A DNA stretch of 64,000 bases from NCBI GenBank assembly GCA_949292215.1, contig CASEYW010000102.1, forward strand, positions 1-64,000. Reading direction: 5' to 3'. Made by a program: the position numbers and the translations under genes. The DNA is from an uncultured bacterium (GTDB lineage: Bacteria; Verrucomicrobiota; Lentisphaeria; Victivallales; UBA1829). Shown in pieces: positions 40,013 through 44,364 of the stretch. Positions within the stretch are counted from its first letter, which is position 1; each line of letters begins with the position of its first letter. A model generated the notes under the pieces. The model was not told the origin of the DNA. It did not search any database and was given only the letters and a program-made list of their open reading frames with translations.

Positions 40013-40040
40013 TTGATTTTGGAAAAAAATGGAATATAAT
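40013..40040 (+). promoter_or_regulatory. mraZ promoter
   Basis: TTGATT (40013-40018), 16-nt spacer, TATAAT (40035-40040), 37 nt before mraZ. Confidence 0.65.
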
Positions 40041-40064
40041 GGAATAGAATGGAATAAACCGGAG
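40020..40064 (+). promoter_or_regulatory. mraZ: Five 10-bp-phased direct repeats (MraZ box)
   Basis: TGGAA recurs at 40020, 40030, 40040 and 40050, and CGGAG follows at 40060. The exact 10-bp period matches known MraZ operators (TGGG-type pentamers every 10 bp before mraZ). The repeats cover the -10 box and start site, as for autorepression. Confidence 0.75.
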
Positions 40065-40076
40065 AAAAAAATCCTG

Positions 40077-40541
40077 ATGCTTTCTTTTTGCGGAATTGAT
40101 CGATGCTCCGTGGATGCCAACGGCAGGATTAAATTGAGTCCGCGGGTAATAGAAGACTTTACCGCCAGAGGCGGAGAGGTCGTTCTGCACTGTCTGCCGG
40201 AGGGAGCGATTGCGGTTTATCCGGAAGATGTATATCTTGCGATGCGAAAAAATGAGTCGAATCCGGCGGAAAAGGCTGCGGAAAGCATTGTCTTCCGCAG
40301 AACCCTCCGAAGATTCGGCGGCTGGAGCCAGTCGGAAAAGATATCGGCACAGGGCAGAATCACGCTGCCGCAAATGTTCAAGGAACATGCAGGACTCAAA
40401 AACGGTGCGGACGCGGTGGTTGCCGGAGTGGAGATCGGAGTCGAACTGTGGAGCGTCGAACGCTGGGAGGAGGAACAGCGGAAAATCGATGAACACATGA
40501 GACGGAAGAGCGAACAGGAAATGGAACAGGATCTGCTGTAG
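40077..40541 (+). CDS. mraZ: Transcriptional regulator MraZ
   Basis: 154 residues from ATG 40077. Two AbrB-like halves: V-D-A-N-G-R-I-K-L-S-P in the first and I-S-A-Q-G-R-I-T-L-P in the second. MraZ heads division/cell-wall clusters and represses its own operon. Here it is followed by FtsL-like, PBP-module and SEDS genes; mraW (rsmH) is absent between them. In-frame upstream codons at 40029 lie inside the repeat array and are unlikely starts. Confidence 0.88.
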   Translation: MLSFCGIDRCSVDANGRIKLSPRVIEDFTARGGEVVLHCLPEGAIAVYPEDVYLAMRKNESNPAEKAAESIVFRRTLRRFGGWSQSEKISAQGRITLPQMFKEHAGLKNGADAVVAGVEIGVELWSVERWEEEQRKIDEHMRRKSEQEMEQDLL

Positions 40542-40570
40542 GATTCGAAAACAGGAAAGCGAGGTCGGAA

Positions 40571-40846
40571 ATGAGTGCATGGATCAGAAACCGGAAAATC
40601 CGGTACGCATTTTGCATTGTCGTTCTGGCAGTTTCGCTCCTGCTGCTCGGTGCGGGACGGATGAACGGTGAAAAAAGAACGCTCTCAAGACGGGCGGCGA
40701 ACATCTCGGTCTGCCGCGTCACTTGCGAACGTCTTCTTCCTGCGCTTCCCATGGAGGAGCGTGCCGCGTGGAACAATCTGGTCCGGAAATCACCGGAACT
40801 GGCGCTGCGCATCGGGAGCGTCAATCTGCATGAACTGAACCGCTGA
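40571..40846 (+). CDS. Small FtsL-position membrane protein
   Basis: 91 residues, one membrane helix (~residues 10-27) after a basic N-terminus, then a ~60-residue helical extracytoplasmic domain. Size, topology and place (after mraZ, before the PBP-like gene) fit FtsL, but sequence similarity is weak, which is usual for FtsL. Confidence 0.5.
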   Translation: MSAWIRNRKIRYAFCIVVLAVSLLLLGAGRMNGEKRTLSRRAANISVCRVTCERLLPALPMEERAAWNNLVRKSPELALRIGSVNLHELNR

Positions 40847-40863
40847 GCAGGTGAAATCTCCGC

Positions 40864-41583
40864 ATGAATCCGGAAGCACATACTTCCGCGGACCAGTTCC
40901 GCCGGAGAAGCGGAATCCTGTTTCTGATTCTAATTGCATGGGGAGTTCTCGCCGCGGCGCATATCCTTTATTATTCCTGGTACCGGCGCGACAGCCTGCT
41001 CAAGGAAACTCTGCATCTTGCCTGGAGGGAAGGAGTTCTGCCGCCTCTCCGCGGACGCATCCTTTCCGCCGATTCCCGTCTGCTTGCCTGGACGGAACTG
41101 ACGCATGATCTGATTCTGCGGAAACCGCTCCCCCCTCCGGCACGTTTTGAAGAGCTGATTCGCAGACTCACCACTCTTCTTCCGGATCTTGATCCGGAGG
41201 AAAAGGAGGCGTTTATTCTGCTGAAACGGAACATCTCACCGGATGCAGTGCTGAAAATCGAAGCACTTCTGTCCGATTCGCCAGAGCTGTCGGTGGTTCC
41301 GCGAATGATCCGGCGTTCTGTGGATGATCCCGGACTCCGGGAAGTGCTCGGAGAAACGATGCCGGAACCGGGAAGTCCGGCGTTGAGAGGCGTCAGCGGA
41401 CTGGAACAGAAATACGATTCCGTTCTCGCTGGAAAACCGGGGAAGTTCCGCGTCATGCTGGGTCCCGGCGGCAAATGGATTTCCGGAACCATAGAGCTGA
41501 TAGCCCCTCCGGAAAACGGGAAAGATGTTGTCCTGCCGGAAACATTCCAACTTCCAGCGGGAAAAAAGAGGGTTCTTCCATGA
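40864..41583 (+). CDS. Class B PBP dimerisation module lacking the transpeptidase domain
   Basis: 239 residues. One membrane helix (~17-39), then the pedestal hallmarks of class B PBPs: P-P-L-R-G-R-I-L-S-A-D-S-R-L-L-A-W (residues 60-76) and G-L-E-Q-K-Y-D (179-185). It ends soon after N-G-K-D-V-V-L (218-224), where full-length PBPs pass into the transpeptidase domain (G-x-D-L-x-L-T-I-D). No S-x-x-K, S-x-N or K-T-G motif is present. Its stop overlaps the SEDS start (ATGA at 41580), so the short form looks native. Probably a SEDS partner without crosslinking activity. Confidence 0.7.
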   Translation: MNPEAHTSADQFRRRSGILFLILIAWGVLAAAHILYYSWYRRDSLLKETLHLAWREGVLPPLRGRILSADSRLLAWTELTHDLILRKPLPPPARFEELIRRLTTLLPDLDPEEKEAFILLKRNISPDAVLKIEALLSDSPELSVVPRMIRRSVDDPGLREVLGETMPEPGSPALRGVSGLEQKYDSVLAGKPGKFRVMLGPGGKWISGTIELIAPPENGKDVVLPETFQLPAGKKRVLP

Positions 41584-42695
41584 AACTGCGAAATCAGTCA
41601 TTTCTCAATACTGCACTTGGACTTTCCATTCTCGGTCTCGGCGGCTGTCTTGCAATCTACAGTGCACGCTCGTTTGGAGAAAATCCGTTTTATTTTGCGT
41701 TCCGTCAGCTGCTCTGGCTTGGAAGCGGAGTGATCTTTTTTCTTTTTCTTGCCCGGATTCCGTTCCGGTATTATGAAAAAAACGCATGGCTGCTTGCCGG
41801 AATCTCCTTTTCCGCACTGATCCTGGTTCTGGTGTTCGGTACGACAATCAACGGAATGAGAGGGTGGTTCTCCATTGGAGGGAAAGTTCTGCTCCAGCCG
41901 TCGGAACTGGCAAAAGCGCCGTATCTCCTTCTGCTTTCTGTGATTGCATCGAATGAATCGATGACTTCCAAAAGACGTTTTCTTCTGCTCTCCGGGACAG
42001 GAGGGGCATTCTGCGGAATCATTCTGCTTCAACCCGATTTTGGAACGGCAAGTGTCTATTTTGCGGGACTTGCGATCGTGCTGTTCGTCACGGGATTCCG
42101 ATACCGCATTCTTGCACTGCTTCCGGCCGTCGCCCTTCCCTGCACGGTTCTTTTTCTTCTGAATCACGAATATGCGATGGCACGAATTGCCGGGTATCTG
42201 AATCCGGATGCCCATTTGTACGGAAGCGGATGGCACATCAAACAATTTCAATATACACTTGCCCACGGCGGGTTGTTCGGATCGGACTGGGGCGGCGCAC
42301 TCTGGTCGAACGCATATCTGCCGTTTTCGCACAGCGATTCTGCCTTTGCCGCAATCGTGGAATCCGGAGGGGGAGCGGGAGGACTTCTCATTCTGGGAGG
42401 ATTTCTAGCAATGGTCTGGCTGTTTCGCGAGATGGCACTTTCGGGAGGAAACAACACGGCGCGGATTCTGATCTTTTCCGCAGGAGCGGTTTGCGCGGTC
42501 CAGGCGCTGCTGCACATCGGAGTCAACACGGCGCTTCTGCCGCCTACAGGACTCACGCTCCCGATCTTCAGTTACGGAGGCAGTTCTCTGTTCGGCACCA
42601 TGGCAGCCTTCGGAATGGCTTGCAGTGCCTCAAGCTCCGGATGCCCTTCCCATTCAGGAACAGAAAAAAAATCAGCAAATACGGTTGAGTTTTGA
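41580..42695 (+). CDS. SEDS-family glycosyltransferase (FtsW/RodA)
   Basis: 371 residues, ~10 membrane segments, standard length. SEDS motifs visible: L-L-Q-P-S-E-L-A-K, L-Q-P-D-F-G-T-A, L-P-F-S-H-S-D-S-A-F-A, and G-L-T-L-P-I-F-S-Y-G-G-S-S. It polymerises peptidoglycan from lipid II with a class B PBP partner; the coupled upstream gene is such a partner without its transpeptidase. The usual T-D-F of FtsW is S-D-S here. The dcw-like context favours FtsW, but RodA cannot be excluded. Confidence 0.87.
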   Translation: MKLRNQSFLNTALGLSILGLGGCLAIYSARSFGENPFYFAFRQLLWLGSGVIFFLFLARIPFRYYEKNAWLLAGISFSALILVLVFGTTINGMRGWFSIGGKVLLQPSELAKAPYLLLLSVIASNESMTSKRRFLLLSGTGGAFCGIILLQPDFGTASVYFAGLAIVLFVTGFRYRILALLPAVALPCTVLFLLNHEYAMARIAGYLNPDAHLYGSGWHIKQFQYTLAHGGLFGSDWGGALWSNAYLPFSHSDSAFAAIVESGGGAGGLLILGGFLAMVWLFREMALSGGNNTARILIFSAGAVCAVQALLHIGVNTALLPPTGLTLPIFSYGGSSLFGTMAAFGMACSASSSGCPSHSGTEKKSANTVEF

Positions 42696-42766: not shown

Positions 42767-43600
42767 ATGCATGACATGGCTACAATCAGGCGGCAAATAG
42801 CTGAACCGCCGCTTATTGCAGAGAAAGATCAATACCTGATCAAGTTTGCCATTACGGATGCCGAAATCGAAGACGCCTTCAAATTGCGTTATAATGTTTT
42901 CAATGTCGAACAGGGCAAAGGGCTGAGTACGTCAAAGAACGGAATCGACAAGGATAAATTCGATGATTCCTGTCTTCATTTGATCGTGGTCCGGAAAGAC
43001 ACGGGAAGAGTTGTCGGCACCTATCGGATTCACTTCGGTTCCATCGCGGCACACTCCATGCTCGGATTCTATTCGGAGCAGGAATACAGCATTGAAGGTC
43101 TTGCGCCGCTGGCTTCCGCCAGTATCGAAGTCGGCAGGTCCTGTGTTGCGCAGGACTCCCGGAACGGATCGGTGATGGCGCTCCTCTGGAGCGGGATCTC
43201 TGAACTGATTTACCGAAGCAAACAGAGATATCTTCTCGGCTGTGTCAGTCTGGAAGTGACGGAACCGGTCGCAGGATGGGCTCTGTATGAATATTTCAAA
43301 CGCACCAACTGCTTTGCTCAGAATATCCGCGCATTTCCGAGAAAAGGCTACGAACTGCCGCGTCCTCCGGAATCGGAAATTCTGGAGGCGGCAACGGATA
43401 AAAAACGGATTCACGCCATGATTCCTCCGCTCTTCAAGGGATACCTGCGTCTGGGAGCGAAAATCTGCGGAGAACCGGCCTTCGATTACGAATTCGGCTC
43501 CATCGATTTCTTCATCATCCTGGATGTGGAACAGGTTCCTCAGAGATACATGAAACATTTCAGCGTCGAACCGGGAAAAAACAACGAACGGAAATGCTGA
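42767..43600 (+). CDS. GNAT-type N-acyltransferase, OlsB-like
   Basis: 277 residues; RBS AGGGAGAA. The GNAT/autoinducer-synthase-like core opens F-K-L-R-Y-N-V-F-N-V-E-Q-G, then G-R-V-V-G-T-Y-R-I and V-G-R-S-C-V-A-Q. Paired with a PlsC-type acyltransferase overlapping its 3' end, this is the OlsB-OlsA arrangement that makes ornithine lipids (N-acylation, then O-acylation). Other lipid acyltransferases of the same fold remain possible. Confidence 0.65.
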   Translation: MHDMATIRRQIAEPPLIAEKDQYLIKFAITDAEIEDAFKLRYNVFNVEQGKGLSTSKNGIDKDKFDDSCLHLIVVRKDTGRVVGTYRIHFGSIAAHSMLGFYSEQEYSIEGLAPLASASIEVGRSCVAQDSRNGSVMALLWSGISELIYRSKQRYLLGCVSLEVTEPVAGWALYEYFKRTNCFAQNIRAFPRKGYELPRPPESEILEAATDKKRIHAMIPPLFKGYLRLGAKICGEPAFDYEFGSIDFFIILDVEQVPQRYMKHFSVEPGKNNERKC

Positions 43601-44364
43601 CCTTCTTCAGAAAACTTTACCGGATCGCCTGCCTTCTCGGCTGGTTCCTGTTCATGGCGACAGGAGCGATTCTGCGCAAACTGGGAAAAAATCCGGAGGA
43701 AACCATCCGGCAGGCCTCGCTTGACACCGGACGATGGGCCCGCGGAATTCTGAATATTCTGAATATCCGCCTCACTGTGCATGGGACAATGCCGCAAACC
43801 CAGGGAGTTCTGATCGTATCGAACCATCTGGGATATCTGGACATCATTGTCCACGCCTCGCTGATGGGAGTCCGGTTTGCACCGAAAAAAGAGATCCGTT
43901 CGTGGCCGTTCCTCGGATGGTACGTCGGGCTCTCCTGCCCGGTCTGGATCGACCGGAAATCCCCGGCAAAGTCCAAAGAGACTCTGGAGGAGTTTGAAAA
44001 AACGCTGCGGATCGGCGTTCCGCTGATCGTTTACCCCGAAGGAACAAGCACGGATGGACTTCATGGACTCCGTCCATTCAAATCGACCCCTTTCGAAGCG
44101 GCAATCAAAGACAACCGTCCGCTGATGCCGATCATCACGGTCTACACCGTTCCCGAAGGGGCAATGAATCCGGCATGGTTCGGCGATCAGGAGCTTCTGC
44201 CGCATGTATGGGAGCTTCTCGGAATCCGGCAGATCAAGGCTGATGTTTATATTTCACAACCGATTCTCCCGGAAGGCTTCGACCGGAAAATCCTGGCGGA
44301 AAAAACCCGCGATGTGATGCTGGCATCCTATCGGGAACATACAGGAATCACGGAGGAATCATGA
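43594..44364 (+). CDS. PlsC-type acyltransferase, OlsA-like
   Basis: 256 residues. The acyltransferase motifs are N-H78-L-G-Y-L-D83 (HX4D) and Y-P-E-G-T-S-T near residue 150. An N-terminal membrane segment anchors it. It overlaps the OlsB-like gene by 7 nt. It transfers an acyl chain to lyso-ornithine lipid if the pair is OlsBA, or to lysophosphatidate if it is a housekeeping PlsC. Confidence 0.8.
   Translation: MLTFFRKLYRIACLLGWFLFMATGAILRKLGKNPEETIRQASLDTGRWARGILNILNIRLTVHGTMPQTQGVLIVSNHLGYLDIIVHASLMGVRFAPKKEIRSWPFLGWYVGLSCPVWIDRKSPAKSKETLEEFEKTLRIGVPLIVYPEGTSTDGLHGLRPFKSTPFEAAIKDNRPLMPIITVYTVPEGAMNPAWFGDQELLPHVWELLGIRQIKADVYISQPILPEGFDRKILAEKTRDVMLASYREHTGITEES

Follow-up and report, generated by a model that had tools for sequence, protein, structure and literature searches.

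The window, a 64,000-nt stretch of contig C102 from a 4.9-Mb draft metagenome-assembled genome (MAG; 89.7% complete, 7.8% contamination), carries a compact forward-strand unit of four genes. The unit opens with four operator-like TGGAA(N5) repeats of 10-bp period at 40020-40059 (TGGAAAAAAA, TGGAATATAA, TGGAATAGAA and TGGAATAAAC), followed by mraZ2, which encodes an MraZ paralogue (40077-40541; PF02381, E 1e-13), and by sTM (40571-40846), which occupies the position of ftsL and encodes a 91-aa protein with a single transmembrane (TM) segment and no significant match in Pfam. The third gene (40864-41583) encodes a 239-aa pedestal-only class B penicillin-binding protein (PBP), consisting of a TM anchor and a PBP_dimer domain and matching PF03717 only (residues 60-207, E 2e-11); its product is here called the pedestal. 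The fourth gene, SEDS3 (41580-42695), encodes a SEDS glycan polymerase of a third clade (PF01098, FTSW_RODA_SPOVE; residues 23-351, E 1e-62). The last two genes share an ATGA overlap (41580-41583), in which SEDS3 starts with ATG at 41580 and the pedestal stop codon TGA occupies 41581-41583. Open reading frames (ORFs) and Pfam matches bear out the order given by an earlier sequence-only reading of this DNA, namely mraZ, a small TM gene, a PBP pedestal and a SEDS gene, and the ATGA coupling and the missing mraW noted there are both present as described.

That reading had also called the locus a reduced dcw operon, which is wrong, as an intact mraZ-mraW-ftsL-ftsI cluster lies on another contig (C135) of the same genome and encodes a 655-aa FtsI. 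PBP2 (617 aa) is encoded on C93, FtsW on C34 next to murG, and RodA on C188 adjoining an adenylosuccinate-synthetase-like gene. Of 12 relatives sampled, 11 share the mraZ-mraW-ftsL-ftsI order, and the remaining one, a distant member of the class, has mraW and ftsI with no ftsL detected between them. The window locus does not have this order: mraW is absent and mraZ2 is a second mraZ copy beside the canonical mraZ1 on C135. With the canonical genes present elsewhere in the source genome, the locus represents a paralogous third SEDS system.

The pedestal scored 45 bits against a Pfam cut-off of 24.4 for PF03717, which places it with the N-terminal part of class B PBPs. The transpeptidase domain (PF00905, with motifs SxxK, SxN and KTG) had no match in the protein, and PF00905 matches lie elsewhere in the genome; the product is therefore a PBP pedestal rather than a PBP in the strict sense. 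When 27 homologues were combined in a profile, it aligned to residues 15-226 of Pseudomonas aeruginosa FtsI, a segment that covers the TM helix and the pedestal and stops at the edge of the transpeptidase domain, in agreement with the earlier claim that the protein ends at that border. The predicted structure (AF2, pLDDT 91.6) recovered 6pl5_B (PBP2 of RodA-PBP2) and 8bh1_B (FtsI of FtsWIQBL) among its top three Foldseek matches. As the TM-scores are only moderate (about 0.5), the fold match also rests on E-value and the sequence profile. Pedestals form one clade (support 100/99) with long branches, and for that reason the tree gives no choice between FtsI and PBP2 as their origin. High-scoring full-length matches in family f10, considered as possible descendants of a full-length PBP ancestor at the locus, proved to be PBP2.

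The short form is conserved across the class Lentisphaeria, including outside the order of the window. Searches of 61 relatives gave pedestal matches in 52, of which 13 were weak and inside full-length PBPs (genus g6) and the other 39 were short ORFs or contig-end fragments. Profile matches across 289 genomes of the phylum were bimodal, with short ORFs at E <1e-19 only in the class of the window; the remaining listed matches lie in full-length frames, bar contig-end fragments. The short protein is about 190-290 aa long, the short ORFs of the profile search measuring about 200-350 aa, some with over-called N-terminal starts; besides many MAGs, the Victivallis vadensis type strain DSM 14823 and two closed genomes, zth2 and WC36, carry it. 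An assembly error or decaying pseudogene might be suspected because the window lies in a draft MAG; the same short gene in the two closed genomes and the type strain, together with class-wide conservation and purifying selection (dN/dS 0.15-0.26 for the pedestal), makes this explanation extremely improbable, and a frameshift at the pedestal is ruled out by the closed genomes and relatives. The earlier suggestion that the truncation was selected gains support, since relatives encode this short protein in place of a full PBP, dN/dS is low and the overlap with the SEDS gene is mostly kept.

SEDS3 is likewise under purifying selection (dN/dS 0.10-0.18) and has the SEDS fold, scoring 212 bits against a PF01098 cut-off of 26.4. 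It is not assigned to FtsW or RodA, falling below the NCBIfam equivalog cut-offs of TIGR02614 and TIGR02210, and also below that of spoVE. In a tree of 48 SEDS proteins, all 31 SEDS3 sequences form a single clade (100/100) to which neither RodA nor FtsW from this class belongs. D253 aligns with D255 of Thermus thermophilus RodA (A in the mutant structure 6bas), the catalytic Asp is present in 37/38 SEDS3 proteins, and all the signature residues compared (Q106, P107, E109, K112, D253 and E261) match RodA/FtsW. The loop preceding D253 carries a clade motif, mostly WHxxQ, in which RodA/FtsW have N or Q in place of H. The most divergent SEDS3 (L071:639-1751, genome G221; branch length 1.62) has F in the Asp column and an adjacent Asp, in an ambiguous alignment. 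One pattern scan found no viral relatives of SEDS3. The AF2 model (pLDDT 85.6) matches 8bh1_A, the FtsW of FtsWIQBL, with a Foldseek TM-score of 0.79; taken individually, the confidently modelled SEDS3 and pedestal folds match the two halves of solved SEDS-PBP complexes. The predicted activity of SEDS3 is lipid II polymerisation. Loss of the transpeptidase would also be explained if SEDS3 polymerised another undecaprenyl-linked glycan, one with no need of peptide crosslinks, and the separate, long-branched clade with its own loop motif and no transpeptidase partner is compatible with such a substrate; this is nonetheless improbable, given the match of every tested signature residue to RodA/FtsW and the lack of glycan-biosynthesis genes consistently adjoining SEDS3.

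Pedestal and SEDS3 genes are closely paired. Of 58 named SEDS3 loci, four are too near a contig end to test, and 52 of the other 54 have a short pedestal directly upstream (four cut by a contig end), the exceptions being L114 and L124, which have no adjacent pedestal. With start codons taken nearest the pedestal end, SEDS3 begins before the pedestal gene has ended in 29 of 32 relatives, and in 13 of these the overlap is exactly 4 nt. Within the order, the nine genomes with a pedestal encode three SEDS genes and the eight without encode two, each of these genomes having two full-length class B PBPs. Several lineages of the order do without the system, so it is not universally essential. Pairing is looser in the wider class: SEDS3 was not found in two genomes that have a pedestal (G196 and G096), it is absent within the stretch read in a third (G040), and in G165 it lies on a different contig (L156) from the pedestal. 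Four pedestal genes (L044, L067, L068 and L069), one of them in G165, have no SEDS gene directly downstream.

On this evidence, the locus probably encodes a dedicated third SEDS-PBP synthase of the Lentisphaeria, with a class B PBP reduced to anchor and pedestal and crosslinking provided in trans. The main function of the pedestal could instead be regulatory, through binding to FtsW or RodA in competition with FtsI/PBP2, with SEDS3 independent or secondarily regulated, as might be expected from the two genomes that keep a pedestal without a detectable SEDS3. This is unlikely, because the pedestal gene adjoins, and mostly overlaps, SEDS3 in nearly all loci and, in the order tested, occurs only where a third SEDS exists.

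By analogy with RodA-PBP2 and FtsW-FtsI, the TM helix of the pedestal would dock on the membrane domain of SEDS3 and its pedestal domain on extracellular loop 4 (ECL4), and this docking would switch on lipid II polymerisation; sTM might act on the pedestal as a regulator, as FtsL or MreC do. Crosslinking of the resulting glycan strands would fall, in trans, to FtsI or PBP2, the sole crosslinkers found in the source genome. The search for a separate transpeptidase proposed with the earlier reading yielded FtsI, PBP2, a class D beta-lactamase-like protein and one partial domain match only, and thus no dedicated enzyme for SEDS3 in the source genome. Other PF00905 matches in the genomes of the order are smaller or weaker than the two full-length class B PBPs, and some belong to class A PBPs. 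The beta-lactamase-like protein (C107; L032:1870-2784, on a 3-kb contig) has a class D family as its best CDD match; this small PF00905 protein and another in zth2 (L155) were rejected as partners because class D beta-lactamase models match them best. The partial match (C33; L033:4392-7514) is an ORF of about 1040-1048 aa that aligns to positions 40-133 of 299 in PF00905 with 50 bits.

Neither class A PBPs nor YkuD L,D-transpeptidases were found in the source genome, G001 (98% complete) or G012 (97%), so that FtsI and PBP2 are the only crosslinkers detected in these three genomes. Other members encode one or both of these families, and L,D-transpeptidases are therefore not a consistent crosslinker across the group. 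Class A PBPs (PF00912) were not found in 39 of the 61 relatives, including genomes 95-99% complete. A simple replacement of class A PBPs by the pedestal system is unsupported, since the presence of one does not exclude the other: six genomes (G006, G009, G018, G021, G047 and G052) have both a class A PBP and a pedestal, and six (G038, G039, G042, G049, G054 and G057) have neither. More tentatively, and with less confidence than the synthase itself, the system may represent a SEDS activator naturally split from crosslinking, a free-standing regulated polymerase that, where a lineage has no class A PBPs, would stand in as the unlinked polymerase.

Both halves of the proposed synthase belong to known families. 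As in RodA-PBP2 (T. thermophilus 6PL5, Escherichia coli 8TJ3) and FtsW-FtsI (P. aeruginosa FtsWIQBL, 8BH1/8P1U), the polymerase has a SEDS fold with a catalytic Asp, and its partner shares their pedestal fold and has a single TM helix; unlike in those complexes, the partner is without the entire transpeptidase domain and SEDS3 is by phylogeny neither RodA nor FtsW. Activation of SEDS proteins has been placed at the interface of the pedestal and ECL4, and FtsI can be essential while its transpeptidase is dispensable (PMC8078798). Catalytically dead PBP2B supports division in Bacillus subtilis if PBP3 is present (PMC5656894), so PBP2B can act, as proposed for the pedestal, as a non-catalytic part of a SEDS machine, but PBP2B still has the domain, which mutation can inactivate, whereas the pedestal has lost it by evolution. 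RagB/YrrS of B. subtilis, a proposed stimulator of RodA that is needed when class A PBPs are absent (PMC12457691), resembles the pedestal as a putative stimulator of a SEDS polymerase and differs from it in acting on RodA, whereas the activator proposed here is a PBP pedestal that has a dedicated SEDS partner. In RodA-PBP2, activation has been connected with movement of the transpeptidase domain (PMC10257715); this prompts the question of how a partner devoid of the domain is switched. A class B PBP that lacks the transpeptidase and is paired with a SEDS protein is not described in the mainly open-access literature searched.

Whether a PBP pedestal can activate a SEDS polymerase without crosslinking is under active study, and the work so far has relied mostly on point mutants. 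A pedestal-only construct of this kind has arisen here by evolution and persisted across a class with a cultured type strain among its members, which makes the putative minimal activating unit directly testable. In these cells, wall polymerisation may naturally proceed with no crosslinker built in, which raises the questions of how strands from such a polymerase enter the wall and whether beta-lactams leave SEDS3-dependent wall synthesis unaffected.

The unit probably has its own regulator in MraZ2, as judged from the repeats upstream of its gene. A three-unit TGGAA pattern has three matches in the 4.9-Mb genome, two of which overlap at mraZ2 while the third is a lone triple on C92, and the reversed pattern used as a control has none. 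Similar repeats lie upstream of mraZ2 in most class members examined; canonical mraZ1 genes have TAGGG-type repeats of about 10-bp period in most genomes read (by eye). Mollicutes MraZ likewise binds direct repeats upstream of mraZ (PMC8475190). MraZ2 would control the unit separately from the dcw operon. In family f8, G054 (C40; L139:4055-4585) keeps an mraZ2-like gene without a pedestal and has only two SEDS genes; MraZ2 may have another target there. The 'FtsL-like' label given earlier to sTM reflects position alone, as none of its 22 homologues has an FtsL/DivIC Pfam match; in their alignment, G27, W67 and P75 are nearly invariant. In family f4 (V. vadensis, zth2 and G045), mraZ2 lies apart from pedestal-SEDS3, and in zth2 and G045 sTM stays beside mraZ2 at the split loci (L137:4610-4864 and L138:4734-5021). 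The unit is therefore modular, and this arrangement suggests two modules, mraZ2 with sTM and the pedestal with SEDS3.

Being paralogous and dcw-like, and having an MraZ and operator-like repeats to itself, the unit also brings to mind SpoVE-SpoVD of Firmicutes, a sporulation pair encoded in dcw and likewise an extra dcw-type SEDS-PBP pair beside canonical genes. A duplicated unit of this kind could have been repurposed as a stage-specific synthase for one mode of growth or division, for which the SpoVD/SpoVE synthase of Clostridioides difficile offers a precedent (PMC10693644). No developmental stage is described for the group in the sources consulted. SpoVD, from another phylum, retains its transpeptidase domain, unlike the pedestal. 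Such a specialization is possible, if rather unlikely; it concerns role rather than mechanism and is compatible with a dedicated third synthase whose strands are crosslinked in trans.

Downstream of SEDS3 (42767-44364), the window encodes a GNAT protein (Acetyltransf_5, FeeM/autoinducer-synthase-like) and an overlapping acyltransferase-like ORF. The two genes were not seen beside the locus in relatives examined outside the genus, and they are possibly an acyl-amino-acid or ornithine-lipid pair.
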